Of a stretch of 64,000 nt of DNA, positions 5,552-32,004 are shown piece after piece. Source of the DNA: Phycisphaerae bacterium (GTDB taxonomy: Bacteria; Planctomycetota; Phycisphaerae; Phycisphaerales; Phycisphaeraceae); contig JAUHZU010000001.1 of NCBI GenBank assembly GCA_030425705.1, forward strand, positions 434,001-498,000, read 5' to 3'. Below the pieces are notes generated by a model. That model worked only from the letters and a program-made list of their open reading frames with translations. It ran no database searches and was not told the DNA's origin. A program made the translations under genes and the position numbers. The stretch's first letter is position 1. The number at the start of each line of letters is the position of its first letter.

Positions 5552-5700
5552 CCACGGATGGATTCAGATGGGCACGGATCAAGGCAAGGGATTCAACCCT
5601 AGAGATACAGAACAGGTTGAGGATTTTCTGAATCCGTGTTTATCTGTGTGTATCTGTGGCAAAAACTGCCTTACTTCCCTCCGTGATCTCCGTGGTTCAA
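5552..5700. repeat. Intergenic 'CCACGGAT...ATCCGTG' repeat cluster
   Basis: Contains GCCACGGATGGATTCAGATG (from 5551), the opposite-sense TGAATCCGTGTTTATCTGTG around 5630-5650, ATCTGTGGC, and CTCCGTGATCTCCGTGGTTC around 5678-5697. The arms are imperfect inverted copies of the same short words. Similar wobble repeats are common in planctomycete and Lentisphaerae intergenic DNA. No gene is visible. Confidence 0.6.
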
Positions 5701-6842
5701 TCTTCCCCGCCTGAAACCACGACAAGATTATCCCGGTGGACCACCGCCGTGTACGCGGGCCGGCCCAGGAGCTTCTCGAACTGCGCGGACTGCTTGCCCT
5801 TGATGAGGGCCAGCTCGTCGGCGGTGTAGTTGCTCAGCCCGCGGGCCAGCTCTCGGCCGTTGAGGTCGCGGACCATCAGCACGTCGCCGCGGTCGAACCG
5901 GCCGGTGACCTCGGTGATGCCCGAAGCCAGCAGCGACTTGCCGCGCGTCGTCAGGGCCCGGGCCGCGCCCTCATCCACGGTCACGGTGCCCGCGGGCCGG
6001 GCGGTCAGCGCGATCCAGCGCTCCCGGCTGTCGAGCTTCTTCGACCGGGCCGGGCTTGAGAACACGGTCCCGATCCGCTCGCCCCGCAGCAGGTCGGTGA
6101 GCACGTGCTTCCGTCGGCCGGGCGCGATGACCGCCAGCTCCCCGGCCTCGCAAACGACGCGCACCGCGTCGAGCTTCGCCGCGATCCCGCCCGTGCCCCA
6201 GGCGCTCTGCGTCTGCCGGGCGTGCTGCTGCGCCGCGATCGGGTCGTCGCACAGGTCGATCACGTGGTCGTCGCCGTCCAGCAGGCCATCCGCGCTGGTC
6301 AGCAGGATCAACGCGTCGGCCCGCAGCGCGTTGGCGGTCAGCGCGGCGAGCATGTCGTTGTCCCCGAACCGCAGCTCGTCCACCGCGACGGTGTCGTTCT
6401 CGTTGAGCACCGGCAGGACATCCATCCCGTGCAGCGTCGTGATGCAGTTGCGGATGTTCAGGAACCGCCCGCGGTCGTCGAAGTCCGCGCGGGTGAGCAG
6501 GACCTGGCCCACCGCCATGCCCCGGCGTTTCGCGGCCGTGTGCAGGTGCGCCATGAGCTTGCGCTGCCCGACCGCGGCGACGGCCTGCTGCGTCGCGACG
6601 TCCGTCGGCCGCTTGCCGAGCCCCAGCTCCGCGCACCCCGCCGCGATCGCGCCGCTGCACACCAACACGACCTCCCGCCCCTCCTCCCGGAGCTGCTTGA
6701 TCTGCGACAGCAGCGACGACAGCACCGCCGTGTCCAGCCCCGGCCCGCCGGGCGTCTGCTTCGAGATGAGTTGTGAGCCGACCTTGACGACGACCCGCCG
6801 GGCATCACGCAACACGGTCTGGCGGAGTTCGGTCGAAGGCAT
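5697..6842 (-). CDS. proB: Glutamate 5-kinase
   Basis: Phosphorylates glutamate with ATP, the first step of proline synthesis. The 381-residue protein has the amino-acid-kinase fold (VVVKVGSQLI near residue 20, VLVCSGAIAAGC, LNENDTVAVDELRFGDNDMLAA in the middle) and a C-terminal PUA domain from about residue 285. Length matches the family (about 370). The ATG at 6842 is preferred to a TTG ten codons upstream because it gives the usual length, although neither start has a strong ribosome site. proA is not adjacent. The C-terminal end lies against the repeat cluster at 5552-5700. Confidence 0.93.
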   Translation of the reverse strand: MPSTELRQTVLRDARRVVVKVGSQLISKQTPGGPGLDTAVLSSLLSQIKQLREEGREVVLVCSGAIAAGCAELGLGKRPTDVATQQAVAAVGQRKLMAHLHTAAKRRGMAVGQVLLTRADFDDRGRFLNIRNCITTLHGMDVLPVLNENDTVAVDELRFGDNDMLAALTANALRADALILLTSADGLLDGDDHVIDLCDDPIAAQQHARQTQSAWGTGGIAAKLDAVRVVCEAGELAVIAPGRRKHVLTDLLRGERIGTVFSSPARSKKLDSRERWIALTARPAGTVTVDEGAARALTTRGKSLLASGITEVTGRFDRGDVLMVRDLNGRELARGLSNYTADELALIKGKQSAQFEKLLGRPAYTAVVHRDNLVVVSGGED

Positions 6843-6932: not shown

Positions 6933-8237
6933 TCACCGCGAATCCCTAAGCATACCGAGGATCATGTCCGCGTGGCGGCGGGTCGAGCCCTGTCGCGCGC
7001 GGATCACGGCCCGGCCGGCGTCGGACAGGTCGGCCGCGCGTGAGCGGTCCGTGAGCAGCGCAAGCACCGCGTCACGCAACGCTTCCGGCCCCGCTTCGGC
7101 GACGACGATCCCGCCGCCGTCCCGCAGCGCCGCGACGGCATCCGTGAAGTTCTTGTGGTCCGGGCCGATGACCGTCGGCACGCCCAGCGCGACGGGCTCC
7201 ATCGGGTCGCTCCCGCCCCAGCCGTTGAAGCTCCGCCCGACCACCGCGACATCCGCGAGGGCGTACGCCTTGCGAAGCTCGCCCATCGTGTCCACCAGGA
7301 AGACCGGCCCCTCCCCAGGCCGCTCCGACGACCGGCGGACCATCCCCGCATCGAGCCGGGCTACCGCGTCGAACCGCTCGGGCTTGCGTGGCACGAGCAC
7401 GAGCTGCGTCCCCGGCAACGCTTCGCGCCAGCCCGACAACGCCTCGATCAGCACCTGCTCCTCGCCGTCGCCAGTGGAACCCGCGACGACGACCGGCTTG
7501 CTCCGGTCGAGACCCAGCTCGGCCGCGATAGCGTCCGCACCCGCGACACCCTCCGCCGGCTCGATGGCCGCCGCGTCCCACTTCATCGTGTCCAGCACCT
7601 CCACCCGCTCGGCCGGGACGCCCAGGGCCCGGAACCGCTCGGCGTACGCCTCGGTCTGCGCCGCGACCTTTGTCAGCTTCGCGAACGTTGGCGCGACCAG
7701 CCCGCGTACCCTGCGATAGCCGCGGAAGCTGTTCTCGCTCAGCCGGCCGTTGACGACGACCAGCGGGACGCCACGCGCAGCGCACGCGTCGGTGAAGTTC
7801 GGCCAGACCTCCAGCTCCACGGTCGCGACCAGGTCCGGCCGGACGCGATCCAGGAACCGCGCGACCGCGCCTGAGAAGTCCAGCGGGTAGCGGGTGCAGC
7901 GGACGCGGTCGAGCCGGCCGTACATCGCCCGGGCGCGGTCCGCGCCGGTGTTGGTGGTGGACGCGATCACGAGTTCGAGCGTCGCATCGCGCGCGAGCAG
8001 TTCGTCCACCAGCCCGCGGATCAGCGCCGCCTCGCCGACGCTCACGGCATGGATCAGCACGCGTCTCACCCCCGCCGGCTTGGCCGGCAGTGCTTCGAGC
8101 ATCGATCCCCGGCCCATCCGCGCGGACCAGTCCGTCCGCCACTTGCCGGTGCGCAGCAGCTTCCAGCCCCAGACCGGCGACGCGAGCGTCAGCCCCGCCG
8201 CGTACACGATGTCCCGGCCCTTGCCCATGCCGGGCAT
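6933..8237 (-). CDS. waaA: 3-deoxy-D-manno-octulosonic acid (Kdo) transferase
   Basis: Transfers Kdo from CMP-Kdo to lipid A on the cytoplasmic face of the inner membrane. The 434-residue protein has an N-terminal membrane anchor (IVYAAGLTLASPVWGW), then a GT-B glycosyltransferase with HAVSVGEAALIRGLV, TTNTGADRA, VELEVWPNF, VVNGRLSENSFRGY and, in the C-terminal domain, FNGWGGSDPMEPVALGVPTVIGPDHKNF. These blocks are characteristic of WaaA. Its presence implies a Kdo-lipid A outer membrane. An alternative ATG lies three codons inside (MGKG). A hairpin repeat separates it from proB downstream. Confidence 0.92.
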   Translation of the reverse strand: MPGMGKGRDIVYAAGLTLASPVWGWKLLRTGKWRTDWSARMGRGSMLEALPAKPAGVRRVLIHAVSVGEAALIRGLVDELLARDATLELVIASTTNTGADRARAMYGRLDRVRCTRYPLDFSGAVARFLDRVRPDLVATVELEVWPNFTDACAARGVPLVVVNGRLSENSFRGYRRVRGLVAPTFAKLTKVAAQTEAYAERFRALGVPAERVEVLDTMKWDAAAIEPAEGVAGADAIAAELGLDRSKPVVVAGSTGDGEEQVLIEALSGWREALPGTQLVLVPRKPERFDAVARLDAGMVRRSSERPGEGPVFLVDTMGELRKAYALADVAVVGRSFNGWGGSDPMEPVALGVPTVIGPDHKNFTDAVAALRDGGGIVVAEAGPEALRDAVLALLTDRSRAADLSDAGRAVIRARQGSTRRHADMILGMLRDSR

Positions 8238-8283
8238 TGTAAGAATGGCGGATGTAGGATGTGCGGCTCGATAGGATTAGGGC

Positions 8284-8604
8284 ATGGAGACCTTCGGCAC
8301 CCTCCTTGTCTTCTTTCTCGTCGGCCTAGTCGTGCTAGGCCCGCTCTTCTGTGTGATACTGATAGCGAGTCGTCATCGGCGCTCAGCGGCGTGGATGTGC
8401 CGGGGCTGTGGCTATTCGAAGACGGGGGCCGTCGCCGACCGATGCCCGGAGTGTGGCCACGCCTGGGATGAAGGTGGGTTTGTCGGCGTGTCCGCGCGGG
8501 TCGAGCGTCGGCTGCTGATCGGGCTGCTGTTTCTGTACCTCGTGGTCCTGCCGGTGACGGTTGGGGGCGCGGTGCTGCTGCTGATTCGGTTGATCGCGAT
8601 CTAA
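8284..8604 (+). CDS. Small membrane protein with zinc ribbon
   Basis: A 106-residue protein. A first transmembrane helix (LVFFLVGLVVLGPLFCVILIA) is followed by a cytoplasmic zinc ribbon CRGCGYSKTG...CPECGHAW and a second helix (LIGLLFLYLVVLPVTVGGAVLLLI). The same layout recurs at 45709-46674. Function unknown. It is divergent from waaA with a 46-base gap, so the two may share a promoter region. Confidence 0.75.
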   Translation: METFGTLLVFFLVGLVVLGPLFCVILIASRHRRSAAWMCRGCGYSKTGAVADRCPECGHAWDEGGFVGVSARVERRLLIGLLFLYLVVLPVTVGGAVLLLIRLIAI

Positions 8605-8633
8605 GGTGCCACCGATCCAGCTCGTTTGGTCGT

Positions 8634-8667
8634 GGTGGGTATCGCTCGCGGACTCGCTCCACCCACC
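8634..8667 (+). repeat. GGTGGGTATCGCTCGCGGAC repeat, copy 1
   Basis: Imperfect palindrome GGTGGGTATCGCTCGCGGAC then TCGCTCCACCCACC, just upstream of metG. A near-identical direct copy lies at 10501-10534 and an inverted one at 56375-56407. Confidence 0.85.
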
Positions 8668-8737
8668 TTACGTCTTGCTCTCGATCCTCGCTCCCCACCC
8701 CTCGATCCTTCCCCCAATCCCTTACAATCCCCGCCCT

Positions 8738-10381
8738 ATGAGTACGCACGACCGCAAGCCGTTCTACGTCACGACCCCGATCTACTACGTCAACGACAAG
8801 CCCCACCTCGGGCACGTCTACACGACGATGGTCGCGGATGTCGTCGCGCGGTACCACCGCCTGCGCGGGGACGACACGTTCTTCCTCACCGGCGTCGATG
8901 AGCACGCCGCGAAGGTCAGCGACAAGGCGGCGGAGCACGGCCTGAGCCCGCAGCAGTGGGCCGACCAGAACGCCGCGGCGTTCCGGGATGTGTTCGCCAA
9001 GCTGGAGATGACGAACGACGACTTCGTGCGGACGTCCTCCGACCGGCACAAGGCGAAGGTGACCGAGTACGTCGCCGCGCTGATCGCGTCGGGCGATGTC
9101 TACGCCGGCGAGTACACCGGCTGGTACGACGCGGGGCAGGAGGAATACGTCCCGGAGAACAAGGCCAAGGAGTACGACTACAAGTCCCCGGTCAACGGCA
9201 AGCCGCTGGTCAAGAAGGCGGAGAAGAACTACTTCTTCAAGCTCGAGAAGTACCGGGACGACCTGCTGAAGTTCTACGCCGAGCGTGATGGTTCGGACAG
9301 GGGCTCGTACGTCCAGCCCGAAGCGCGGAAGAACGAGATCGTCAACCGGATCAAGGAAGCGAACGACATCCCGATCAGCCGCACGGGGTCCAACGGATGG
9401 GGCATCCCCGTGCCCGGCGATGATAGTTCCGGGGGGCAGACGATCTACGTCTGGATCGACGCGCTGTTCAACTACCTGACGTATGTGGACGACGACGACC
9501 GCCGGCACTACTGGGAGAGCGGCGCGACACACTTCATCGCCAAGGACATCCTGTGGTTCCACGCCGCGATCTGGCCGGCGCTGCAGATGGCCTTGAGCAA
9601 GTGCGATGGCTACGCGTGGGTCTGGGGCGAAGAAGTCCGCAACAACCAGTTGGTCTACACGCACAGCTACTGGGTGAGCGAGTCCGGCGAGAAGATGAGC
9701 AAATCCCTGGGCAATTTCCTTGACCCCGCGGCGATCGATAACTATGTCGACGAGTTCGGCTTGGATGCGCTCCGCTACTTCCTCGCGACCCGCGGGCCGC
9801 TGGGCACGACCGACTCGGCGTTCTCGCCGGACCTGTTTGTGGAGGTTTACAACAGCGATCTTTCAAAGAAAATCGGTAACTCTAGTTCACGAGTTGCTGC
9901 AATGACGGCTAAAAAGTTAGATGGAATGTTTGGATTTGCGTCTGACTATCGACACATGCACTTGGCAACAGGAACACCGCTAGGTGTGCTGCTTACCGGA
10001 TTTCAGAATGGTATGGATACCCTTAAGCTGGCACAAGCTGGCGACTGTGCGATTGATGTCGTCCGGTTGGTCGACTCATATATCGAGGAAACCGAGCCTT
10101 TTCGGATTGCTGCAGATGGAGATACTCGGGAAGAACTTGAAACAATCTTGTATTCATGTGCCGAGGCCCTGCGCATCGCGTCCGTCCTGCTCTGGCCGTT
10201 CATCCCCGACAAGTGCGAGCAGTTCTGGTCGCGGATCGGGTGTGGGCACTACGCGGAGCGGTTGAAAGACAAGGGCCGGGGCGACCTGGCCGCGTGGGTG
10301 CAGTGGGGGCAGCTCCAGCCCGGCACGCCGATCGAGAAGGGCGAGGCGCTGTTCCCGCGGTATCAGGTCGAGAAGAAGTAG
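8738..10381 (+). CDS. metG: Methionyl-tRNA synthetase
   Basis: Charges tRNA-Met. The 547-residue protein has FYVTTPIYYVNDKPHLGHVYTT (HIGH box at 23-26), no Cys zinc knuckle in the connective insert, and KMSKS at 319-323. A helical anticodon-binding domain follows, and there is no C-terminal EMAP/tRNA-binding domain. The ATG at 8738 is used because the frame upstream is only the GGTGGGTATCG repeat. From about 9843 to 10162 (residues about 369-475) base composition drops sharply, with 24 of 60 bases G+C in 9901-9960, then returns to GC-rich. The frame stays open and the protein stays recognisable, so this is a compositional mosaic, not a break. Confidence 0.95.
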   Translation: MSTHDRKPFYVTTPIYYVNDKPHLGHVYTTMVADVVARYHRLRGDDTFFLTGVDEHAAKVSDKAAEHGLSPQQWADQNAAAFRDVFAKLEMTNDDFVRTSSDRHKAKVTEYVAALIASGDVYAGEYTGWYDAGQEEYVPENKAKEYDYKSPVNGKPLVKKAEKNYFFKLEKYRDDLLKFYAERDGSDRGSYVQPEARKNEIVNRIKEANDIPISRTGSNGWGIPVPGDDSSGGQTIYVWIDALFNYLTYVDDDDRRHYWESGATHFIAKDILWFHAAIWPALQMALSKCDGYAWVWGEEVRNNQLVYTHSYWVSESGEKMSKSLGNFLDPAAIDNYVDEFGLDALRYFLATRGPLGTTDSAFSPDLFVEVYNSDLSKKIGNSSSRVAAMTAKKLDGMFGFASDYRHMHLATGTPLGVLLTGFQNGMDTLKLAQAGDCAIDVVRLVDSYIEETEPFRIAADGDTREELETILYSCAEALRIASVLLWPFIPDKCEQFWSRIGCGHYAERLKDKGRGDLAAWVQWGQLQPGTPIEKGEALFPRYQVEKK

Positions 10382-17948: not shown

Positions 17949-18124
17949 GGGCCAAGTGTATCAGCCCCCGCGGGCAGGGTCGCGGTCAGTGGATGCGCCG
18001 CCGGGCCGGGAGAAACCCCCGCCCGGACGCAAGGAACGCGATTTCCCTTGACCCGCGGCTCGGCACCCCGGACAATGACCGGATTCCGATGTTCCCCCCG
18101 CCCGACAGCCACCCCCCGGTAGTG

Positions 18125-20386
18125 ATGATGAACGACACCCTGAAGACGTTATCCCCTAGCCCGACCCGGACGACCGCCCGCCGGCTCTGCCGAGCCGCCC
18201 TGGCGTGCCTCGCGGCGGTGGGGATCGGGCTGGCGGGGGGGTGCAACAACAAGCAGACGCTCGACACGCCGGTCGCCGCCGAGCCGGGCGCGACGTTCTC
18301 CGGCGAGGCGTACCTCCGCGGCACGGTGTCGTCCTACGGCGTGCTCGTCGACAACACGCCGCTGCTCGTCTCGGGCTTCGGCATGGTCGTCGACCTCAAC
18401 GGCACGGGGTCGAACGAGGTGCCCGCGTTCCTCCGCGAATGGCTCATCACCGAGATGCGCCGCAACAACGTCGGCTCTACCCGCTTTGGCAGCGACAACC
18501 TCAGCCCGCAGCGCGCGCTGGCCGACACCGGCTCCGCCGTCGTCGCGGTCGAGGGCTTCGTCCCCCCCGGGGCCGCGGTCGGCTCGAAGTTCGACCTGCT
18601 GGTCACGATGATCGACCAGAACTCGACCAGCCTCGAAGGCGGCCGGCTCTTCTGGCCGACCACCCTCACCGAGAACGGCCTCAACAGCCAGCTCATGTTC
18701 ATCCGCCCCTCGGCCGAGGCGTACGGGCCGATGTACATCAACCCGGTGCGCGGCGCGGACTCCGAGATCGAGTTCCTCCGCCAGGCCGTCGTCGTCAACG
18801 GCGGGACGGTGACCGAGGCACGCCAGATCCAGATGGTGCTCAACCAGCGGAGCTACCTCCGCGCCCGCCAGATCGCCGACCGCGTCAACGAACGTTTCCC
18901 CGCCGGCCGGGAGGACCGCGTGCCGACCGCGGTCGCCAAGAGCGACCTGATCATCGAGTTCAACATCCCCAAGCGGTTCGCGCACGACCCCGAGTCGCTG
19001 CTGGACCTGATCGCGCACCTCTACCTCGACCCCTCGCCCAGCTTCGCGCCCAACCAGGCGGCCTACCTCCGCGACCGACTGCTGGAAGACCCCGAAGGCC
19101 GGGCAGGCCACGTCGTCTCGGCCTGGAAGACGCTGGGGCGGAACATCACGCCCGTCCTCCGTGAGCTGTACACCCACGACAACATGACCGTCCGCACCGC
19201 GGCGCTCGAGGCCGGGGCCTGGCTGCAGGACCGGCAGGCCGTCGACCCGCTGGTCGAGATGGCGGCGCACGACGACCCGGCAATGCGTGTCGAGGTGGCG
19301 CGCTGGCTGGTCGCGTTCACCGGCGTCCCCCGCGCCCGCAACACCGTCCGGGCCATGCTCAACGACGACGACCCGGCCATCCGCATCGGTGCCTACGAGG
19401 CGCTGTCGATGGTCGGCGACCCCAACATCGAACGCATGGCCGTCGGCCAGGGTGACCAGTTCAAGTTCTACATCGACCGCGTGCGCTGCGACAAGCCGAT
19501 GGTCTTCGCGACACAGACCGACACCCCGGTGCTCGTGATCTTCGGCCGGGACCTGGGCTTCCGCCGGTCGCTGTTCACGCAGGTCGGCGACGCGTTGATG
19601 ATCCGCACCATCCCCGTCGACACGATCCGCGCCGCGACGGCCGGGCTCTTTGAGGGCGAGACCGCCTACATCCCGATCCACTGGCAGGGCCGGCGTGAGC
19701 TGATCGAGCAGGAACTGCAGACCTCCTTGGGCGTGGAAGCCGACGAGCCGGTCTACCAGGTCGAGCTGGGTGACCGCAACGGCGAGGTGATGAAGGTCCG
19801 CCTCCGCGGGCAGGACGTGATGGACCGCATGCGGGAGGACCTGCTGTTCGAGCTCCCGCGCTCGCACGCCGTCGCGCTGGACCAGCCCGCGGCGATCGCC
19901 GTAGTCCGGCTGGTCGAGGTGCCCCGCCGGGTCAACAACCAGTGGCAGGGCGAGTACGTCGCCGAGCTGCTCGCGCTCCAGACGACCGACCGGCCCCTGC
20001 CGCTTGCGGTCCGCTACAGCCAGCCCGGCGTGGGCGAGGCCCAGACCTACCGCATCGCCCCGACCGTCGCCACGCTCGCCTACACCCTCGGCTACGAGCG
20101 CGACGAACGCCTCGCCAAGCTCGGGCCAGACCTGCCCTACAGCACCGTCGTCCAGGCCCTGCACCAGCTCTGCGAACAGGGGCTGATCCCCGCGCCGTTC
20201 GAGATCCAGTTCAACCAGATCGCCCAGGACGTCGAGGACGCCCAGCGCGAGGGTGAGATCGAAGAACGCCCCGAGCTGGACTTCGTCGAAGAGCCCGCGC
20301 CCGGCAGCCAACCCGGAACCGAGCCCCAGCCCGACCCCGCGGCCCAGACCCCGGCCGAGCCGCCCGCCGACGAACGCCCCGAGTAG
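18125..20386 (+). CDS. FlgI-like lipoprotein with HEAT repeats
   Basis: Secreted lipoprotein: a hydrophobic signal ends in the lipobox LAGGC. Residues about 55-290 resemble the flagellar P-ring protein FlgI (LVSGFGMVVDLNGTGSNEVP, VVAVEGFVPPGAAVGSKFDLLVT, SLEGGRLFWPTTL, with the long strand-loop order of FlgI). Residues about 310-450 are HEAT-like helical pairs (VRTAALEAGAWL, DDPAIRIGAYEALSMVGD). The last part is unassigned and ends in a Pro/Glu-rich tail. Flagellar FlgI is about 370 residues and is not a lipoprotein, and no flagellar genes are nearby. This suggests a non-flagellar envelope ring or pore. The ATG at 18125 is chosen for the signal peptide; ATG 18128 and 18089 are alternatives. 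Confidence 0.65.
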   Translation: MMNDTLKTLSPSPTRTTARRLCRAALACLAAVGIGLAGGCNNKQTLDTPVAAEPGATFSGEAYLRGTVSSYGVLVDNTPLLVSGFGMVVDLNGTGSNEVPAFLREWLITEMRRNNVGSTRFGSDNLSPQRALADTGSAVVAVEGFVPPGAAVGSKFDLLVTMIDQNSTSLEGGRLFWPTTLTENGLNSQLMFIRPSAEAYGPMYINPVRGADSEIEFLRQAVVVNGGTVTEARQIQMVLNQRSYLRARQIADRVNERFPAGREDRVPTAVAKSDLIIEFNIPKRFAHDPESLLDLIAHLYLDPSPSFAPNQAAYLRDRLLEDPEGRAGHVVSAWKTLGRNITPVLRELYTHDNMTVRTAALEAGAWLQDRQAVDPLVEMAAHDDPAMRVEVARWLVAFTGVPRARNTVRAMLNDDDPAIRIGAYEALSMVGDPNIERMAVGQGDQFKFYIDRVRCDKPMVFATQTDTPVLVIFGRDLGFRRSLFTQVGDALMIRTIPVDTIRAATAGLFEGETAYIPIHWQGRRELIEQELQTSLGVEADEPVYQVELGDRNGEVMKVRLRGQDVMDRMREDLLFELPRSHAVALDQPAAIAVVRLVEVPRRVNNQWQGEYVAELLALQTTDRPLPLAVRYSQPGVGEAQTYRIAPTVATLAYTLGYERDERLAKLGPDLPYSTVVQALHQLCEQGLIPAPFEIQFNQIAQDVEDAQREGEIEERPELDFVEEPAPGSQPGTEPQPDPAAQTPAEPPADERPE

Positions 20387-23600: not shown

Positions 23601-24955
23601 AGATCTCCCAGCGCGAACACGAGGTCAAGACCGACGCCATCGTCGACCGCTGCCGCGAGCAGCAGGACCTCGACCTCCAACAACGCTACACGCTCACCCT
23701 CGAGTTGCTCCGCTCCGCGCCCCCGGAATCAGAATCGGAACCCAACTCCGATCAAGAACCCTCCCGCAACGTGGATGACGAAACCCAGACCCCAGACCCG
23801 AAATCCGAGACCCAACCCGACTTCATCGGCCCCCTCACCTACGAAGCCCACCTAGCCCAGGAACAAAAAACCCTAAGAGACTCAATCGCCCAAGACCTCC
23901 AACAAAACCCCACCCCCTTCGACATCGACTGGGAGTCCATCACCGCCGAGATCGAGGACCGCAAGGGCCGCATGGCCCGCCTGGGCACCGTCAACCTCGG
24001 CGCGATCGACGAGGAAAACGAGCTCGAAGAGACCCAGGACGAGCTCGCCGACCAGGTCAAGGACATCGAGCAGGCCGAACGCCAGCTCCGCCAGCTCATC
24101 GAGCAGATCAACAACGACTCCCGCGTCCGCTTCGAGCAGACCTACAAGGAGGTCCGCGAGAACTTCGCCGGCACCCAGGGGCTCTTCCGCCGCCTCTTCG
24201 GCGGGGGCAAGGCCGACGTCGTCCTCCAGCCCGACGAGCACGGCAACATCGACCCCCTCGAAGCCGGCATCGAGATCATGGCCAAACCCCCCGGCAAAGA
24301 ACCAAGGGCGCTGTCCCAGCTCTCCGGCGGCGAAAAAACCATGACCGCCATCGCGCTGCTCATGGCCATCTTCAAGTCCCGCCCCAGCCCCTACGCCATC
24401 CTCGACGAAGTCGACGCCGCGCTGGACGAGGCCAACGTCGAGCGCTTCATCACCATCGTCCAGTCCTTCCTCGACAAGTCCCACTTCATCATCATCACCC
24501 ACCACAAGCGCACCATGCAGGGCTGCGACGCCCTCTACGGCATCACCATGCAGGAACGCGGCGTCTCCAAACGCGTCCGCGTCCAGTTCGACCAGTTGGC
24601 CCCCGGAAGCGGGGAGATCAGCCGCGAAGCGCTCAACCGGGTGGCGGAAGAACAGGGCGAGGAAGAAGCAGAGGAGCAAGGATCGAGGACCGAGGATCGA
24701 GTAGCGAGGATCGAGGATCGAGTCCCGGAAACGTCCACTTCCGAACATTCGACATCCGAGATCCGAAATCCGAAATCCCCTCCCTCCCCAACCCCCAACC
24801 CCAAACTCCTAAATCCCAACCTGAACGCCGACATCCCCGCCCCCGCCGACGACGCCCCCAAAGAACCCCCGGCCAAGCCGGCGTCCACTTCCGGGGGCAA
24901 CCGCGCCAAACTCGCCGCCATGCTCGCCGGCAAAGACCCCGTCGAGGTGGAGTAG
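20633..24955 (+). CDS. smc: Chromosome segregation SMC ATPase, with repeat-derived inserts
   Basis: Condensin core that organises and segregates the chromosome. At 1440 residues it is some 250 longer than usual. Walker A GPNGCGKSN is at 31-39. Two long coiled-coil arms (about 190-540 and 730-1030) flank a hinge. The signature LSGGEKTMTAIALLMAIF is near 1229 and Walker B PYAILDEVDAALDEAN near 1254. Extra segments are a Glu/Asp-rich insert at about 91-127, a repeat-coded insert at about 640-660 in the hinge, one at about 1030-1066 (PESESEPNSDQEP...), and a tail from about 1340 coded by short GATCGAG and ATCCGAAATCC repeats. An AGGAGGT ribosome site precedes the ATG. Confidence 0.95.
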   Translation: MRLAKLTLAGFKSFADKTEIAFDQPVVGIVGPNGCGKSNVVDAIKWVLGDQSPKSLRGGAMMDVIFNGSAARKPSGMASVTLTFDNPLLTVPVADSEPNHADAEEPSDETPGSADDSPVATLVSNRTCNRLLQVDADEVAVTRQLYRDGTSEYLINNKRVRLRDIKELFMDTGIGTDAYSVIEQGKVARMLEANPAQRRQIFEEAAGISRFKARKKEAERKLDRTEQNLALCRQRLEDTERRLRSVKMQAARARSYQEHQSRLSELQLTFSLAEYHKLATELTDVNDQLEQAEADRAAAQRELAKHEQALAEAETERDAVAAKLKDLEQQRIQKQGDKSKQEQRLQFAVSNLGDVKSQIKRDADRLEELDEKRRRYAAELKDLEQQIADLEAAKTEGEQRLEAAREENQKLQHELSEAQSALEDEKRGINQLLRKAQSLQSEIRSLDTFQENLAATRDKLDARSSQIAEQLGQMLDSRDTAQAKLTEVEQHLTRESDQLTSQKDLSGRFGEQINQLTARLSELKEKRSSLQSRRHVLQEMEDNLEGVSDPVKAVLAQHAADADTDDGGPFAFIRGMLAELIDTDVANAKLVEAALGDHQQTLVVDRLADLCSSTTGRAAIQALAGRVTLLAIDQPPLPPFHPHAAPERSEGADRAPVNPNPTRVLDLVRYPAWLAPIAHRVLGRTYLVHDLDRALLLRATLPDGARFVTQTGEVLEADGRIFAGPVAAGTTSGLISRRSELASLQAELTELEALIASDQQTLAMLSDQAAHAEKVASDLQKSIFDLSAGRAELTSKLEGLAGQIASLEKERPALTHEAEQVHAQLRDAAEKRDAHRAEHDQLEADAEQRQQAIAALEQAITDKRDAAEHAREQVTTLRVDASKTAEQLSAAQRAARQHEVAAADNQRQHANVEQQLAGYRQKIADLEAQRDESQALVASLDSELQGLIAQCETVAARVAEHDQAMASLREGVKTHRAAHDKLDKAVHKLEISQREHEVKTDAIVDRCREQQDLDLQQRYTLTLELLRSAPPESESEPNSDQEPSRNVDDETQTPDPKSETQPDFIGPLTYEAHLAQEQKTLRDSIAQDLQQNPTPFDIDWESITAEIEDRKGRMARLGTVNLGAIDEENELEETQDELADQVKDIEQAERQLRQLIEQINNDSRVRFEQTYKEVRENFAGTQGLFRRLFGGGKADVVLQPDEHGNIDPLEAGIEIMAKPPGKEPRALSQLSGGEKTMTAIALLMAIFKSRPSPYAILDEVDAALDEANVERFITIVQSFLDKSHFIIITHHKRTMQGCDALYGITMQERGVSKRVRVQFDQLAPGSGEISREALNRVAEEQGEEEAEEQGSRTEDRVARIEDRVPETSTSEHSTSEIRNPKSPPSPTPNPKLLNPNLNADIPAPADDAPKEPPAKPASTSGGNRAKLAAMLAGKDPVEVE

Positions 24956-24990
24956 CCCTCGGTAGTCCAGCCCCCGGAAGCGGAACACCT

Positions 24991-25019
24991 CACGCAGAGG
25001 CGCTAAGGCGCGAAGTCAA
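24991..25019 (+). repeat. CACGCAGAGGCG-type intergenic repeat
   Basis: CACGCAGAGGCGCTAAGGCG then CGAAGTCAA, between smc and the HNH gene. It belongs to the same loose family as the AGAGGCGCGGAGGTCGCGG copies at 32017, 33427 and 34056. A GCCCCCGGAAGC word lies just upstream at 24970-24981. Confidence 0.7.
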
Positions 25020-25058
25020 GCCATGTCGCCTTGCTGCATCCCGCTGTAAACTTGTCGT

Positions 25059-25883
25059 ATGGCTGAGGGACACCTCCGGAAAAACTGGTCTCGGGCAGAA
25101 ACCCTCCTCGCCTTCCGGCTCTACTGCCAGTTACCCTTCGGCAAGCTCCACCAGTACAACCCCGACATCATCACCCTCGCCCAGCACCTCGGACGTACCC
25201 CCTCGGCCGTTGCCATGAAGGGCTGCAACTTCGCCTCCCTCGACCCGCTACACCAACAGCGCGGCGTCACCGGCCTAACCAACCGTGGCAAACTCGAAGA
25301 ACAAATCTGGGAAGCGTTCCACGACGACAGCGAAGCCATCGCCAACGAAGCCGAAGCCCTGTATGAATCGCTCTTGAACCCACAGGCCAACGGCGATGAC
25401 CCCACTAAACCATCAGAACTAGATGACCTCGCAAGCCCTGATCGATTGGCGCTCCCGGTGGGGCCAACCGAAGTCGAACGCACAGTGCGTACCCGCCGCG
25501 TGCAGGGCTTCTTCCGCCGCGCCGTCCTCTCCGGCTACGGCCACCGCTGCGCCCTCACGCGTCTAGCGATCCCCGAACTGCTCAACGCCAGTCACATCAT
25601 CCCTTGGGCCACCCCCGGAAGCGAGCAGCACAGAGCCGACCCGACGAATGGGCTGTGCCTCAATGCCCTGCACGACCGCGCCTTCGACCGTGGGCTGATC
25701 ACCTTCGACGAAAACCACCGCCTCTTGGTCTCCCCAATGCTCGCCGACGACACCGCCCCCGACGGCCTCGGCCGCTTCGCGGATGCCTTCACCCCCCAAA
25801 CCCCACTCATCCTCCCCGAACGCTTCGCGCCGAGCCCTGAGGCGCTCGCATATCATCGAGAGGAAGTGTTCCTGTTGGCGTAG
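25059..25883 (+). CDS. HNH endonuclease
   Basis: A 274-residue protein. The N-terminal 65 residues (NWSRAETLLAFRLYCQLPFGKLHQYNPDIITLAQHLGRTPSAVAMK, in two blocks) look like a helical DNA-binding module. The C-terminal half is an HNH_2-type nuclease with CALTRL, ASHIIPW (His179), DPTNGLC (Asn197) and LNALHDRAFDRGLI (His205), so the catalytic set is intact. It likely cuts DNA, probably as a restriction enzyme. It is 94 bases upstream of the C5-methyltransferase in the same orientation, but its composition stays GC-rich like the host genome, unlike the next two genes. Whether it belongs to that system is inference. Confidence 0.85.
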   Translation: MAEGHLRKNWSRAETLLAFRLYCQLPFGKLHQYNPDIITLAQHLGRTPSAVAMKGCNFASLDPLHQQRGVTGLTNRGKLEEQIWEAFHDDSEAIANEAEALYESLLNPQANGDDPTKPSELDDLASPDRLALPVGPTEVERTVRTRRVQGFFRRAVLSGYGHRCALTRLAIPELLNASHIIPWATPGSEQHRADPTNGLCLNALHDRAFDRGLITFDENHRLLVSPMLADDTAPDGLGRFADAFTPQTPLILPERFAPSPEALAYHREEVFLLA

Positions 25884-25977
25884 CATTTGCTGTCGCAAGC
25901 AGGGTTTTCTACATGGCTGAATTGGGGTAGAGTATGTTGTCTCCTGACTCGACCACGAATCCATCAGCAACAGACTT

Positions 25978-26985
25978 ATGAAGCGAGCAATAGACTTGTT
26001 TTCGGGTTGCGGGGGGATGACGCTGGGCCTCAAACAGGCGGGCTTCTCCGTTGTGGGGGCCGTAGACTTTGAGCCGAACGCTGTAAAGACCTACAAAGCC
26101 AACCACAAAGGTATCCATGTCTGGCGACGGGACATCCGACGGTTGCCTGCCGTGGAAGTCATGCGGAAGCTAAAGATTGCTCCTGGCGAGTTGGACTTGC
26201 TTGCAGGGTGTCCACCCTGCCAGGGTTTTTCCCGGATGAAGACGCTCAACGGAGGGCGACAGGTCGATGACGATCGAACAAACTTGGTACTCGACTTCGC
26301 TAGGTACATCAAAAAGATGCGCCCCAAAGCCATCCTGATGGAAAACGTGCCGGGCCTACAGAATGATTGGCGATTCCTTGAACTGCTGCAACGTCTGGAT
26401 GGTTGGGGGTACAACTACAAACACGCGGTGCATAACGCCGCAGACTATGGTGTGCCGCAACGTCGCAAACGACTGATCCTGATGGCGGTGCGAAACGGTG
26501 ATATCGATTTTGTATCCCCGGAGGTTGCTCGCCGGACAGTACGCGACGCGATTGCACATCTGCCGGTAGCTGGACAAAGTGGCGACCCGCTTCACGATCT
26601 ACCGGAAAGAAGATCGGACCAAGTCAGGCAACTTATTGCCGCTATCCCTAAAGATGGAGGGAGCAGGAATGAGCTGCCGCCTGACAAGCAACTCGCTTGT
26701 CACCAAACCTGCACCGGGTTCAAGGATGTGTATGGCAGAATGGCATGGGATAGTGTTTCGCCTACAATTACGAGTGGCTGTTTCAATCCATCAAAAGGGC
26801 GCTTCCTGCACCCGACACACGATCGCGCGATCACGATGCGCGAAGCTGCTCTACTCCAAAGTTTTCCAGAGGACTATAAGTTTCTGCCAGAAAGCAACAA
26901 AACTGCTGTAGCTCTTATGATTGGAAACGCATTACCTCCGGAGTTTATTCGTTGTCAGGCTATTCAACTCGGCGACAACATCTAA
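25978..26985 (+). CDS. DNA (cytosine-5) methyltransferase
   Basis: Methylates cytosine at C5 in a specific DNA site, using SAM. The 335-residue protein has motif I DLFSGCGGMTLGL (6-18), motif IV GCPPCQGFSR with catalytic Cys81, motif VI MENVPGL (121-127), motif VIII YGVPQRRKRLIL, a target-recognition stretch, then motif IX-like RAITMREAALLQSFPEDY and motif X IGNALPPEF. It is complete. Base composition is visibly lower in GC than the surrounding core genes, suggesting recent transfer. The GHKL-nuclease gene starts 15 bases after its stop, so the two form an operon. The target sequence cannot be read from this. Confidence 0.95.
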   Translation: MKRAIDLFSGCGGMTLGLKQAGFSVVGAVDFEPNAVKTYKANHKGIHVWRRDIRRLPAVEVMRKLKIAPGELDLLAGCPPCQGFSRMKTLNGGRQVDDDRTNLVLDFARYIKKMRPKAILMENVPGLQNDWRFLELLQRLDGWGYNYKHAVHNAADYGVPQRRKRLILMAVRNGDIDFVSPEVARRTVRDAIAHLPVAGQSGDPLHDLPERRSDQVRQLIAAIPKDGGSRNELPPDKQLACHQTCTGFKDVYGRMAWDSVSPTITSGCFNPSKGRFLHPTHDRAITMREAALLQSFPEDYKFLPESNKTAVALMIGNALPPEFIRCQAIQLGDNI

Positions 26986-27000
26986 CTTATTGGTACATGA

Positions 27001-29004
27001 ATGAGCGAAACCCCTGCTGAACTTTACATGACTGTCTTGGGTCGGACGCTTGAACACCTTGGTGTTCAGATGTACAAAAGTCGGGCAGGCGCGATCGCAG
27101 AGTTAGTGGCGAACGCTTGGGATGCAGGATCGCCAAAAGTAGATATCATCGTGCCGACAGAAGATGATTATGACCAAGAGAAATCAGAGATCATCATTTG
27201 TGATTATGGTTGTGGCATGTCATTTGAGAGCGTGCAAGGCGAGTATCTGGTCGTTGGCCGAAATCGCCGCAAAGAAGACGGGGCCGAGAGTAACGGTCGC
27301 CCTCTAATGGGTCGTAAAGGTATCGGCAAACTTGCTGGCTTTGGTATTGCTGAGCATGTTTCAGTTCACACTTGGACTGAGAATTCGTCCATCCAGTTCG
27401 AGATGAGCTTAGAAAAACTGAAAGTACCTTCGGGTAAGACTGATCGCCTTAACATCCCATGGAATCATGTTACCCCTCCTGCGAATGGCCATACGTCTGG
27501 TACGGCTGTAAAGCTACGGCGACTGAGGCATAAGAGCTCACTAGATGTGGGCTCTCTAGGATTGTCTCTTGCGCGACGTTTTAGCCGCCGTGTAGTTGGA
27601 CAGATGGAGATCATGATCAATGGCGTTCCTTTGCCTGATCCGACACCTCCATTGGACATGAGGATACCAGATAACGGAATGCTAGAGCATGTGCTAGATT
27701 CTGGGAGTGTAGTTCGATATTGGTACGGGTTTGCTGAGGATCTTATTGCACTGAAGGAACAACGCGGATTCACTATTCAGGTTCATGGGAAAACGGCGCA
27801 AGCCCCACCATTCTTTTTTGATGTTGAAGCCACGGCGTCTGGTCAACATTCAACGAAATACATAGTTGGAGCAATCGAAGCCGATTTCTTGGATGATGGG
27901 GATGATGACGAAACAGACTTAGTATCTACTGATCGTCAAGAAATCGACTGGGAGGATGAAGCATCTGCCGAATTAAGGGATTGGGGGGAAGCGCTAAGCA
28001 GGAAAGCACTTGCCGATTGTGCGGATTTTCGCGGATTAAAAGTAGAGAACTGGGTACTTGCTGAACCCGGTCTGAATGAGCGAATGCAGCGATTCGATCC
28101 ACCAACCCAAAGAGAGGTTCAGCGCTTTCTGAAGATATTGGGCACAGCCACAGAAAAAAATGAGAGAACGCTAGAGTTGGCGAGTTCTCTTGTCGGCGCA
28201 TACGAGTTCCATAATTTTCACAATTTTATTGACGACATAGAAGCTGTTGCCGACAATCCTGAAGAACTTGCCAAACTGCTGGGATATTTGCATGACTGGC
28301 AAGTACTAGAAAGTCGAGCGATCTTAGAAGTGATAAAAGGTCGTCTGGAGATTATCGATAAGTTTTCGTCGATGCTAGTTAATGATGCTCCTGAGACAGC
28401 ATCTAAGATTTCTCCATGCAATATGCATGACTTGCTCGCAGGTCATCCGTGGCTTCTCAATCCTGAATGGCAGATTCTGTCCGAGGAAACAACAATCACG
28501 AGGCAGCTGAGGGAATGGAATGTAGAAGATGTCCCGGATGAAAGTGATAGGTCTCGGTACGATTTTCTGGCGCTTTCAAGTGAATCGCAGCTAGTAGTTA
28601 TCGAGATCAAGCGTCCGGACCTTGCGGCAAGCCTAGATGAACTTCAAAGATTGGAAACATACGCAGATAAACTTTCGATCGCACATCGCGACAAGACTCT
28701 CTTTAAGGTGTTCGTTTGTGGTCGTGATCCAAAGATAAACAAAGACACATTGCGGAATTGGGAGACACGCTCAGATGGTGAGATACGCTATTGGGGGCAA
28801 CTGTTTGGCAGAACGCAGAGAATTTATGAGCATTATCGTGCTGTGCTTGATCGTGCCGTAACTCATAAAGACTTTGCTGGTGCTCAAGCAGAGGTTTCAT
28901 CTGCTAAACGACTCCTCGATACAGGAACCATACACAGGGATGCAGAGCAAAGAAAGCTTGGAATCCCGCATCAAGATGTAGATTATCTTCAGTCTGAAGA
29001 GTAG
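27001..29004 (+). CDS. GHKL (MORC/HSP90-like) ATPase fused to PD-(D/E)XK-like nuclease
   Basis: A 667-residue protein. The N-terminal GHKL ATPase has motif I AIAELVANAWDAG (Glu34, Asn38, Asp41), motif II CDYGCGM (Asp68) and motif III GRKGIGKLAGFG (104-114). The middle, to about 400, may be the S5-like second domain of this superfamily. A helical stretch leads to a C-terminal domain starting near LLAGHPWLLNPEW. That domain carries RYDFLAL (Asp521) and VVIEIKRPD (Glu535, Lys537), then an LQRLETYA helix: a Shedu/DUF4263-like nuclease core. Very AT-rich: 22 of 60 bases G+C in 28321-28380. Co-transcribed with the methyltransferase. Prokaryotic MORC/MutL-like ATPases are known in restriction-modification loci (Iyer, Abhiman and Aravind). 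The role here is inferred. Confidence 0.8.
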   Translation: MSETPAELYMTVLGRTLEHLGVQMYKSRAGAIAELVANAWDAGSPKVDIIVPTEDDYDQEKSEIIICDYGCGMSFESVQGEYLVVGRNRRKEDGAESNGRPLMGRKGIGKLAGFGIAEHVSVHTWTENSSIQFEMSLEKLKVPSGKTDRLNIPWNHVTPPANGHTSGTAVKLRRLRHKSSLDVGSLGLSLARRFSRRVVGQMEIMINGVPLPDPTPPLDMRIPDNGMLEHVLDSGSVVRYWYGFAEDLIALKEQRGFTIQVHGKTAQAPPFFFDVEATASGQHSTKYIVGAIEADFLDDGDDDETDLVSTDRQEIDWEDEASAELRDWGEALSRKALADCADFRGLKVENWVLAEPGLNERMQRFDPPTQREVQRFLKILGTATEKNERTLELASSLVGAYEFHNFHNFIDDIEAVADNPEELAKLLGYLHDWQVLESRAILEVIKGRLEIIDKFSSMLVNDAPETASKISPCNMHDLLAGHPWLLNPEWQILSEETTITRQLREWNVEDVPDESDRSRYDFLALSSESQLVVIEIKRPDLAASLDELQRLETYADKLSIAHRDKTLFKVFVCGRDPKINKDTLRNWETRSDGEIRYWGQLFGRTQRIYEHYRAVLDRAVTHKDFAGAQAEVSSAKRLLDTGTIHRDAEQRKLGIPHQDVDYLQSEE

Positions 29005-29825
29005 ACCTTCGCCTGGTGGCCGGGGTGGAGCGTAGCGACCACAGATTTGGTTGCGAGGGTTCGGCCTTCGGCGGATTGTCGGCAGAAATTCCCGGTTGAC
29101 CGGGAGTTATTCCCGGTGTATCTGCAAACATATCCGGCGGGTGGCAGGGGCAGAGGTTCGGCGATACCCCGGGAAGTGGTTCAAGCGTGAGCGGGCGGAG
29201 CGGGTCCATCACGGCTGACCGCTCAAGTCTTGTGCGGGACTCCGATCCCCGACGACTCAACATCCGAAACCGCCGGGGAAACAGGGGAGTCTGCGCGGGA
29301 AACAGGGGTGTCAGACGTGGAAACACCTGAATCCGGCGTGTATGCCCGTGTTTTTGCGGCGTACACGCGGGGGTTGGGCGTGGATTCATCTGAATAGGTC
29401 GCGTCTCCCCATGAATCCGGGGCGTCAACCCCAAGATTAGACCCGGTTCCGTGTGTTTTTCTGTTGGTTTCGACCACCCCATCGCGCACACGCCCCCCGA
29501 CGCACCCCCGCAGGCCCCGCCCCCGGAACCCATCCATAGCCCCCCGGAAGTCATCAAAGCCCCCCCGGAAGTCGTCATAGCCCCCCGGAAAGACGCAAAG
29601 CCGCCCGGGGGTATGCATAGCCCTCCGCAAGTGGTGGGCGGCTGTGTGTCGTCAGAGAAAAAGTGTGCCGGTGGTGACGGTTGGGTTAAGTGGCGCGGTG
29701 GTGCGGCCGATGGGGTCAGGGCTTCACGTCTCACACCCGGGCGGGCCGCCGTCTGACCCGTCGGGACCGGATCACAAGCGTTCTGCTTTTTCTCCCCGGT
29801 TTCCCCTTTTCGAAAGGAACCCCCG
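29005..29825. other. 821-base gene-poor gap with periodic repeats
   Basis: No convincing gene. It returns to GC-rich composition right after the island. About 29263-29330 holds units of roughly 21 bases around GGGGAAACAGGGG and GCGGGAAACAGGGG. About 29531-29640 holds a second array of roughly 21-base units built on ATAGCCCCCCGGAAGTC. A short reading frame at 29451-29756 translates the second array as HSPPEVI KAPPEVV heptads, but its status is doubtful. The last 20 bases (GAAAGGAACCCCCG) supply the ribosome site of the next gene. Confidence 0.6.
29531..29640 (+). repeat. Tandem array of ATAGCCCCCCGGAAGTC units
   Basis: Five degenerate units of about 19-21 bases, starting near 29536. The first three carry CCCCCCGGAA and the last two are decayed (GCCGCCCGGGGG, GCCCTCCGCAAG). 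The core word matches the GCCCCCGGAAG[CT] word dispersed elsewhere in the window. Confidence 0.75.
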
Positions 29826-30512
29826 ATGGCGACGACGTACCTCCCGACCCGTGAGAGCCAGCTTCTGAGCTTCTCGCAGAACATGTCCGATAAGCTCGTG
29901 GCGGACCCGGCCGGGTTCGGCCTCGATGCCGCGGACGCGACGGCCTATCAGGCGACGCAGCAGGCGTTCGCGGCGGCGTACGCGCTGCTCCAGGTGCCCG
30001 AGACGCGCACCTCGCCCAACGTCGCGGACAAGAACACGAAGAAGAAGGCGCTGATCGACCACACGCGGTCGCTGGTGAAGATCATGCAGGCGTGGCCGGA
30101 CATGACCAACTTCAAGCGCAAGGAGCTGCAGATCACCGTGCCCGATGTGGAACCCAGCCCCGTGCCGGTGCCCAAGACCATGCCGCGCATCACGATCCTC
30201 TCGACGCTGGGGCGGACGGTCCACTTCAAGGTGAACGATGTGGACGAGACCCGGCGCGGCAAGCCGCCGGAGGTCGCGGCCGCGATGATCTACCGGTGGA
30301 TCGGCGAGAACCCGCCGTCCGACCTGGGCCAGTGGCACTTCGAGGGCGCGACGACGACCGCCAAGCAGACGCTGACCGTCCCGGCCGACACCCCGGCGGG
30401 GTCGCAGCTGGCGATCACCGCCCTGTGGGTGAACAACAAGATGCAGCCGGGCCCGGCCTGCCAGCCGGTGATCCTCAACGTCGCCGGCGGCGGCGTGTCG
30501 AAGGCGGCGTGA
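29826..30512 (+). CDS. Hypothetical protein with C-terminal beta-sandwich
   Basis: A 228-residue protein without a signal peptide or membrane segment. The N-terminal 100 residues are helical (MATTYLPTRESQLLSFSQNM..., then NVADKNTKKKALIDHTRSLVKIMQAWPDM). After a Pro-rich linker (VEPSPVPVPKTMP) comes a probable fibronectin-like domain (MIYRWIGENPP, WHFEGATTTAKQTLTVPADTPAGSQLAITALWVN). I recall similar proteins in planctomycete genomes but no function. GAAAGGAA lies 10 bases before the ATG. The stop overlaps an ACCCCCGGAAGC word. Confidence 0.75.
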   Translation: MATTYLPTRESQLLSFSQNMSDKLVADPAGFGLDAADATAYQATQQAFAAAYALLQVPETRTSPNVADKNTKKKALIDHTRSLVKIMQAWPDMTNFKRKELQITVPDVEPSPVPVPKTMPRITILSTLGRTVHFKVNDVDETRRGKPPEVAAAMIYRWIGENPPSDLGQWHFEGATTTAKQTLTVPADTPAGSQLAITALWVNNKMQPGPACQPVILNVAGGGVSKAA

Positions 30513-30570: not shown

Positions 30571-30676
30571 CGGTAGGACAGGCATTCCTGCCTGTCACAG
30601 GCCGAAGGCCTGACCGGATCGCGGGATGGTCGTTTCGGGCGGTGCCCGATGACAGGCAGGAATGCCTGTCCTACCG
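30571..30676. repeat. Perfect 27-base inverted repeat
   Basis: The arm at 30571-30597 (CGGTAGGACAGGCATTCCTG then CCTGTCA) is repeated exactly, reverse-complemented, at 30650-30676, around a 52-base centre. Each arm is itself partly palindromic (GACAGGCATTCCTGCCTGTC). A decayed copy lies at 35495-35520. No coding sequence. Confidence 0.9.
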
Positions 30677-30693
30677 GGCAACATCATGCAACC

Positions 30694-30723
30694 GCGCGGG
30701 GGAGGGGACACCTTCCCCCGCGC
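30694..30723 (+). terminator. Strong GC hairpin before GNAT gene
   Basis: Stem GCGCGGGGGAGG (30694-30705) pairs with CCTTCCCCCGCGC (30711-30723), one bulge, followed by CTTCTCTCTGC. It may terminate the 29826 gene or act in the leader of the GNAT gene. The T-tract is weak. Confidence 0.45.
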
Positions 30724-30756
30724 CTTCTCTCTGCATCCTTGACCGGGAACACCGAC

Positions 30757-32004
30757 ATGTCCGACCTCTCGATCGATCGTCACGAACCCAATGCGTTGCC
30801 GGCACTGCCGGAAGCATCCACGCCGATCTCGATCCGCAAGGCGGTGATGGGCGATTACCCGTTTATCGATGCGTTGCAGAAGAGCGAGCCGCGCAAGCTG
30901 GGATTCCAGTTTGAGAGCGCGCTGAAGAAGCGGATTGAGCAGGGGAACATTCTTGTCGCTGAAGCGACGAGAGTGAATCGTGAACAGTCCACAGTGAACA
31001 GCGGGGAAGGCAATCCGTCTGTTCACTATTCACTGGGAACTGGTCACTCACCGGCGAAGCCGGTGGGCTATGTGCTGGGCGTTGATCGCTACTACAAGCG
31101 GGACGACCTGGGCATCATCTACCAGATGGCGGTGGTGCCGGAGTACCGGCGGTCGCTGGTGGCGGCCCACCTGTTGAAGGCGAAGTTCGAGGACTCGGCG
31201 TACGGGTGCAAGCTGTACTGTTGCTGGTGTGCTCAGGATTTGGTGGAGGCGAACAAGTTCTGGGAGGCGATGGGGTTTGTGCCGTTGGCGTTCCGGACGG
31301 GGAGCGAGAAGACGAAGTTTGTGAACGCGCAGGGGGAGAAGGTGTCGGGCGGAAGAATTCATATCTTCTGGCAGAAGCGGATTCGGCTCGGCGACACGGA
31401 GACGCCTTGGTGGTACCCGAGCGAGACGAGCGGGGGGGCGGTGGGTGCGAACCGGATCGCGCTGCCGATCCCGCCGGGGACGCATTGGTCGGATGCGAAG
31501 CCGGTGGTGCTTCCGCCGGAGCTGGTGGCTTTACCTGCTGCTGCGGGAGAATCGGAAGGGGAGAAAGGCAGTAACGCCAAGACGCCAAAGCGCGGAGGCA
31601 AGGCAGAGAAAGCCAAGAAAGAAGCGGGGGCGGGTGAGAAGCAGGCACAGCCGACAGGCGGACTAGGCGGGTTCTCCGTCGGATTTGGCCCATCACCCGA
31701 GCAGATCGAAGCAGAAGCGCAAGCAAAGCAGGAAGCGAAGCGGGCGAAGCAGGCGAAGAAGAAGGCCGAGCGTGCGCGGCTCAAGACCAACGACCCGAAG
31801 CTATGCGCGTTTTCACGGGAGCTGCGCGACCGCTGGCAGGAGCACGTCGAGGCGCAGCCGGGGCTGATTGAGTCGGCCGCGCAGGCGCGGTACGGCGTGG
31901 GTCGATTGATCGAGAACACGACGCCAACCCAGCCGCCGGAGGTCATCGAGGAGGTGATCGATGAGCCCAAGCGGCTGGACGCGAAACGGCTGGACGCGGC
32001 GTAG
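30757..32004 (+). CDS. GNAT-family acetyltransferase with repeat-coded inserts
   Basis: A 415-residue protein. Residues about 22-200 form a GNAT fold: ISIRKAVMGDYPFIDAL (strand 1, helix 1), VGYVLGVDRYYK, IIYQMAVVPEYRRSLVAAHLL (acetyl-CoA loop), LVEANKFWEAMGFVPLAF. The substrate is unknown. Between strands 2 and 3 there is an extra segment coded by a GTGAACAG-type DNA repeat (about 30970-31050). A second repeat-like stretch (AACGCCAAGACGCCAAAGCG, 31572-31591) codes NAKTPKRGGKAEKAKK. The C-terminus is a Lys/Ala-rich helix, then a tail ending VIDEPKRLDAKRLDAA, copies of which occur elsewhere. The ATG at 30757 is chosen because the frame upstream is intergenic repeat. Confidence 0.75.
   Translation: MSDLSIDRHEPNALPALPEASTPISIRKAVMGDYPFIDALQKSEPRKLGFQFESALKKRIEQGNILVAEATRVNREQSTVNSGEGNPSVHYSLGTGHSPAKPVGYVLGVDRYYKRDDLGIIYQMAVVPEYRRSLVAAHLLKAKFEDSAYGCKLYCCWCAQDLVEANKFWEAMGFVPLAFRTGSEKTKFVNAQGEKVSGGRIHIFWQKRIRLGDTETPWWYPSETSGGAVGANRIALPIPPGTHWSDAKPVVLPPELVALPAAAGESEGEKGSNAKTPKRGGKAEKAKKEAGAGEKQAQPTGGLGGFSVGFGPSPEQIEAEAQAKQEAKRAKQAKKKAERARLKTNDPKLCAFSRELRDRWQEHVEAQPGLIESAAQARYGVGRLIENTTPTQPPEVIEEVIDEPKRLDAKRLDAA
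30970..31050 (+). repeat. GTGAACAG repeat inside the GNAT reading frame
   Basis: The 22-base core at 30980-31001 (GTGAACAGTCCACAGTGAAC then AG) matches, with one mismatch, the reverse complement of 46714-46735. An opposite-sense CTGTTCACTATTCACTG follows at about 31019-31035. The insert keeps the frame open. Confidence 0.8.

Follow-up and report, generated by a model that had tools for sequence, protein, structure and literature searches.

Does a run of three adjacent genes in a planctomycete genome form one restriction system and, if not, which of the genes belong together? The question is raised by positions 25,059 to 29,004 of the window, by which we mean the whole stretch of 64,000 nucleotides that was analyzed (contig JAUHZU010000001.1, positions 434,001 to 498,000, of the Phycisphaerae bacterium assembly GCA_030425705.1, a genome of 4.1 Mb in 21 contigs). 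A first-pass annotation had described there a candidate restriction-modification or defense island consisting of an HNH nuclease gene, a C5-cytosine DNA methyltransferase (MTase) gene and a gene for a GHKL ATPase-nuclease. Our analysis indicates that the last two genes (25978-26985 and 27001-29004) very probably constitute a type II-like restriction-modification pair, BbrUII/HgiDII-like, of the paraMORC3 type and probably gained by horizontal transfer, and that the HNH gene probably stands outside this pair.

Linkage of the methyltransferase and GHKL genes

All three open reading frames (ORFs) are located on the plus strand at the coordinates described and encode proteins of 274, 335 and 667 residues (Table 1). 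As had been described, the MTase and GHKL genes are separated by only 15 bases; by coordinates, 94 bases lie between the HNH and MTase genes and 103 between the HNH gene and the SMC gene that precedes it. The claim that the last two genes are far lower in GC also held, as their GC contents are 0.535 (MTase) and 0.473 (GHKL), compared to 0.668 for the window overall. At third codon positions these two AT-shifted genes have 0.562 and 0.419, and the SMC gene reaches 0.889 (0.673 overall) and the next gene, 29826-30512, reaches 0.961 (0.684 overall). The HNH gene (0.636, and 0.767 at third positions) is just slightly low and nearer to the host composition. In a same-genus genome (G262) whose SMC protein is 85% identical, the SMC gene is followed by relatives of 29826-30512 (43%) and 30649-32004 (45%) in the same order. 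The place of the three genes is taken there by about 4.1 kb in which no HNH, MTase or GHKL match was found and which holds a long ORF, leucine-rich-repeat-like by eye. The site thus differs from one relative to another. The pair appears intact and was probably acquired recently.

To look at the neighborhoods of relatives, genome contigs were scanned. The GHKL protein as a single sequence found no relative, and alignment A1 found at least 580, of which the best-scoring 80 loci were kept, with flanks of up to 6 kb (shorter at contig ends). Using an MTase profile built from 12 methyltransferases, we found 61 of these 80 loci to have a C5 MTase ORF no more than 300 bp from the GHKL ORF, and 71 to have one anywhere in the locus. 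Similarly, when distances were taken between matched domains, so that an over-long ORF could not count as near, an MTase was located within 400 bp in 61/80. Of 258 control ORFs from these loci, chosen at distances above 2.5 kb from the GHKL gene, 8 had one. The annotation had named as a refutation that homologues of the GHKL protein are usually without a methyltransferase; the 80 best relatives usually have one, and the linkage extends across phyla. The 61 adjoining MTases are mostly on the same strand (49, with 27 upstream and 22 downstream), and 12 are in the opposite orientation. Furthermore, GHKL and MTase distances correlate (r 0.525 over 80 pairs, with none of 2000 permutations as high) in a test that did not control for relatedness. 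Its input was 92 loci and the window; loci were left out if they had no MTase or if their ORFs were short, and the MTase closest to the GHKL gene was used even when it lay farther than 300 bp away.

Plasmids gave a comparable picture. Thirty-two plasmid records matched the GHKL protein, and among the 10 annotated neighborhoods examined an MTase adjoined in 9, the exception being a Rubrobacter relative. On a Streptococcus agalactiae plasmid (L048), the GHKL-MTase pair adjoins a pair formed by another MTase and a HaeIII-family nuclease; on a Haloplanus plasmid (L045), it is near a cyclase and Pycsar effector pair; and a Burkholderia plasmid (L164) carries a shorter GHKL gene beside insertion sequences. 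In an eleventh record, from Neisseria gonorrhoeae (L162), C5 MTase pieces, unannotated there, are found just upstream of an interrupted GHKL frame, together with an ORF that is Vsr-like by eye. Two phage records matched, in the GHKL part only. Within the phylum, the GHKL protein matched in 20 of 246 sampled genomes, the window's own included, many of them via the ATPase part only. Of five planctomycete loci, three have a same-strand MTase adjoining (downstream in L050 and L051, upstream in L052) and two have none.

The MTase gene is the only PF00145 match found in its own genome. Its ten closest relatives among the collected loci are 53-62% identical, and all come from loci of GHKL relatives. 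Their target-recognition region is well conserved, which suggests that this subgroup may share one target, and their GHKL partners, where measured, are 28% to 51% identical to the window protein. In PADLOC, the MTase scored 300 bits with a type II model and slightly lower, 291.8 bits, with a DruM model. No match to Druantia genes was found among the 8 neighboring ORFs scanned, which are a subset of those between 13.9 and 36.3 kb.

Table 1. Features of the proposed pair and its upstream neighbor (feature, window positions, strand, evidence)
C5-cytosine DNA methyltransferase	25978..26985	+	Pfam DNA_methylase E 3.6e-60
GHKL ATPase-nuclease, putative restriction endonuclease, BbrUII/HgiDII-like paraMORC3	27001..29004	+	NF050001 E 2e-73
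MORC-like GHKL + S5 ATPase module, residues about 11-315	27031..27945	+	alignment A3, fold match
PD-(D/E)XK nuclease domain, residues 466-622, motif E496-D521-E535-x-K537	28396..28866	+	domain model, residue counts
HNH endonuclease gene, judged neighbor, not pair component	25059..25883	+	HNH_2 E 1.3e-13

Family, fold and catalytic residues of the ATPase-nuclease

The GHKL protein matched the NCBIfam entry NF050001, 'BbrUII/HgiDII family restriction enzyme', with 248 bits, in an alignment that covers both halves and nearly the whole length (profile positions 3-202 and 299-643 of 659). The comparison with defense-system profiles that the annotation had suggested likewise returned PADLOC 'Type II restriction enzyme' models (PDLC03419, E 1e-30; PDLC03485, E 4.6e-25). 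The ATPase part was recognized by Pfam HATPase_c_3 (E 1.6e-15), and a sequence search of the PDB gave weak PMS2 matches alone (E about 0.7). We also counted NF050001 matches in the phylum sample. At E 0.001 the profile matched 233/246 genomes and 10/14 controls, none over the cut-off; since most controls matched, this count takes in GHKL proteins in general, and we set it aside.

An alignment of 31 proteins, the window's and 30 from the 80 kept loci, was used for an AlphaFold2 model of the 667-residue protein. The mean predicted local distance difference test score (pLDDT) was 80.6 and the predicted template modeling score 0.57, and we therefore trust the domain folds more than their arrangement. 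The best VIA match of the model was MORC3 (5ix2_B, Z 25.9, root-mean-square deviation [rmsd] 3.2, 299 residues aligned), covering model residues 11-344. In the ATPase module, E34, N38, D41, D68, G70, G72, G104, K106, G107, G109 and K110 are invariant in all 31 rows of alignment A3. The C-terminal domain, modeled alone, reached a pLDDT of 91.7 and resembled EndoMS/NucS-type nucleases (5gke_A, Z 11.7, rmsd 3.7, 110 residues aligned; 2vld_A, Z 11.6, rmsd 2.8, 106 aligned) and Shedu (8ti9_B, Z 9.4, rmsd 4.0, 126 aligned). Its E-D-ExK motif is complete in the window protein, and across the alignment E496 is conserved in 31/31, D521 in 30/31, E535 in 30/31 and K537 in 20/31. GHKL ATP-binding motifs, an S5 domain and a C-terminal E-D-ExK nuclease are thus all present, and the modeled layout, in which a MORC-like GHKL-S5 module would be joined by a helical linker to the nuclease, fits paraMORC3. 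The family match, the linkage, the folds and the motifs support the proposal that the two genes are a restriction-modification pair of the MORC/paraMORC type.

Several observations weigh against this interpretation. The curated cut-off of NF050001 is 550 bits, which the window protein does not reach, and 10/10 scanned relatives are also under it (233.5-320.5 bits); with the window protein and all ten relatives below the cut-off, we do not claim equivalence to BbrUII. The position of K537 is occupied by Met in 10 and by Leu in 1 of the 31 aligned proteins, while the window protein has Lys. No adjoining C5 MTase was found in 19/80 loci: 10 have one at 0.5-2.3 kb and 9 have none, 2 of the latter being on contigs under 4 kb. 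The loci without one include two of the closer relatives, L084 and L085, both actinobacterial. Conversely, a genome of the same family (G268) has a relative of the MTase and, over the 14 kb read there, no gene for a GHKL protein. Finally, the 80 loci represent the best part only of the relatives found, and shared ancestry may contribute to the distance correlation.

At the catalytic lysine (codon 28609-28611), the Met-bearing relatives nearly all keep the E, D and E residues. They may form a subfamily in which the metal chemistry is altered or the lysine has moved.

The likeness to Shedu raises the question of whether the GHKL-nuclease could act alone, sensing phage DNA as VcSduA does, with the MTase incidental or only regulatory. 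VcSduA has the same domain order, and sections of PMC12137116 describing it mention no methyltransferase; stand-alone paraMORC3 genes are reported in PMC2292703, and some of our relatives have no adjoining MTase. The window protein, however, scored 15.9 bits with SduA_C (DUF4263; E 0.016), below the Pfam cut-off of 27, and both NF050001 and PADLOC match it to restriction enzymes; most of the 80 relatives have an MTase in tight linkage, and the two proteins co-vary. We consider stand-alone defense quite unlikely. A decaying or inactive remnant would be in line with the atypical composition and with the patchy distribution, including four other genomes of the same family in the phylum sample in which no GHKL match was found, but both ORFs are intact and the ATPase and nuclease motifs are kept, so that we regard this explanation as highly improbable.

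In the restriction-modification pair that we favor, the MTase would mark a specific cytosine-containing site and so protect host DNA. Its GHKL partner is predicted to bind ATP, to dimerize via the MORC/Hsp90-like GHKL-S5 module and to close on DNA, upon which the C-terminal PD-(D/E)XK domain would cut DNA with unmethylated sites. Cutting would thus be gated by ATP, both proteins would read a common site, and the pair may serve in defense against phages.

The HNH gene and the surrounding locus

The annotation had considered the HNH enzyme as a possible component, and this part was not borne out: a window-type HNH gene was found in 0/80 GHKL loci (profile from 15 sequences, E 1e-10), and none was found in the five planctomycete GHKL loci. 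We weighed a three-gene system, in which the HNH protein would be a second effector or nicking partner sharing one MTase with the GHKL nuclease. Besides the position of the gene, on the same strand and close upstream of the MTase, such a system would be consistent with the PADLOC models named HNH that match the protein (9.3e-81 for a model that carries no description, 1.3e-39 for one described as 'Type II restriction enzyme'), with the statement in PMC2292703 that paraMORC1 might co-occur with HNH, and with the HNH loci themselves. Among 20 of these, taken with wider flanks and one of them (L163) judged from annotation only, 5 (L181, L183, L184, L210 and L161) have a C5 MTase ORF, or a piece of one, no more than 300 bp from the HNH relative. 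However, the four HNH-linked MTases compared are only 25-28% identical to the window MTase over 192-401 columns, or 40% over 55, far from the values for the MTases of GHKL loci. In addition, the HNH gene is near host composition, and in the phylum sample HNH matches (73/246 genomes, many to the HNH domain only) mostly occur apart from GHKL: 63 of the 73 genomes have no GHKL match, including the four other same-family genomes, and G105 has both about 3.2 Mb apart by coordinates. A three-gene system is therefore unlikely. We rate as very unlikely a composite locus in which one C5 MTase guards the host from two unrelated nucleases, the HNH protein and a MORC-like PD-(D/E)XK enzyme driven by ATP; if true, unmethylated DNA would be cut by a direct or an ATP-gated route.

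The HNH family instead appears, from its neighborhoods, to sit sometimes in other restriction-modification-like loci. A PDB sequence search with the protein matched an HNH endonuclease structure (6yex, 3.7e-13) over the HNH domain only. When the DNA of 25059-29004 was compared with 41 relatives, matches to the HNH part came from 7 genomes other than the window's, and a match to the MTase part from one (G268). At L210, in G262 (4663-6352), a C5 MTase ORF runs into the HNH gene downstream of it, which belongs to the same HNH family as the window's, and a nearby minus-strand ORF (7846-9792) has a GHKL-like N-box by eye and no Pfam match. At L161, on the Neisseria gonorrhoeae record, a relative of the HNH gene adjoins a fragment of a C5 methyltransferase and an ORF that looks Vsr-like by eye. 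Several short HNH matches are found in a genome of the same order (G172, contigs C6, C8, C10, C15 and C19), two of them at contig starts, as if the gene were repeated there and broken at assembly ends.

As to the term island, the three genes are indeed there, but the word is generous: in the PADLOC scan (E 0.001), the 8 neighboring ORFs gave no match except for a HEAT-repeat model in a FlgI-like protein, and we rejected a broad defense island. That protein is encoded by 17993-20386, a single predicted ORF combining a FlgI-like P-ring domain with HEAT repeats. An imperfect tandem repeat of 21/41 bases lies at 29520-29606, between the GHKL gene and the next gene. An Rfam search of 24900-29900 returned nothing at gathering scores, and promoter and terminator scans gave counts close to those of shuffled sequences.

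Comparison with known systems

The BbrUII and HgiDII nucleases themselves have reportedly been assayed, going by the family name. The window nuclease aligns with this family over nearly its whole length and likewise has a linked C5 methyltransferase. It falls far short of the family cut-off, and its nearest relatives found, among the best 80 of at least 580, are only 42-53% identical. M.HgiDII is described as a 5-methylcytosine enzyme for GTCGAC (PMC5867850), and M.BbrUII as recognizing the same site, with a tandem cognate restriction gene predicted for a Chania relative (PMC5005818). This specificity is not transferable to the window pair.

We looked for site avoidance in 464 kb, namely the first 400 kb of contig C14, which also carries the window, and the window itself. 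GTCGAC occurs 311 times where 427.5 are expected (ratio 0.73), and at least ten 6-base palindromes are more depleted by z-score, the lowest 6-mer being CAGCTG (51 observed versus 228 expected, ratio 0.22); AGNCT and CTAG stand at 0.35 and 0.33 of expectation. No specificity was assigned from avoided palindromes, and a pair that arrived recently might not have left such a mark.

The paraMORC3 proteins were described in 2008 by Iyer, Abhiman and Aravind as GHKL and S5 domains with a C-terminal E-D-ExK nuclease and links to DNA methylases (PMC2292703). The window protein shares this layout and the methylase link, and differs in belonging to another phylum, with an MTase of its own. According to the VcSduA authors, proteins combining GHKL and PD-(D/E)xK were earlier annotated as paraMORC3, and VcSduA protects against T1-like phages, a defense that depends on residues of the ATPase as well as of the nuclease and is lost with E27A or K557A (PMC12137116). 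Like VcSduA, the window protein carries a GHKL ATPase and a PD-(D/E)XK nuclease in the same order on a single chain; unlike it, as far as that account goes, it is accompanied by a C5 MTase, and unlike Shedu it lies below the SduA_C cut-off.

The remark that this is not a characterized kind of system can accordingly not be upheld, in view of the NF050001 equivalog, matched along nearly its whole length and under its cut-off, of the GTCGAC methyltransferases and, going by its published description, of the phage-tested VcSduA. The locus offers a clean two-gene example, from a little-studied phylum, of apparent restriction by a MORC-like ATPase-nuclease. Its relatives, with their conserved MTase target-recognition region and differing GHKL partners, would make it possible to ask where in the ATPase-nuclease the site is read, and also why the catalytic Lys is replaced by Met in a third of the aligned proteins. 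With MORC ATPases the window protein shares the GHKL-S5 fold; unlike them, it adds a PD-(D/E)XK domain at the C terminus. The structures of MORC3 and MORC4 that were matched are ATPase-CW constructs. Overall, the pair is a new, divergent member of a named and sparsely studied kind.

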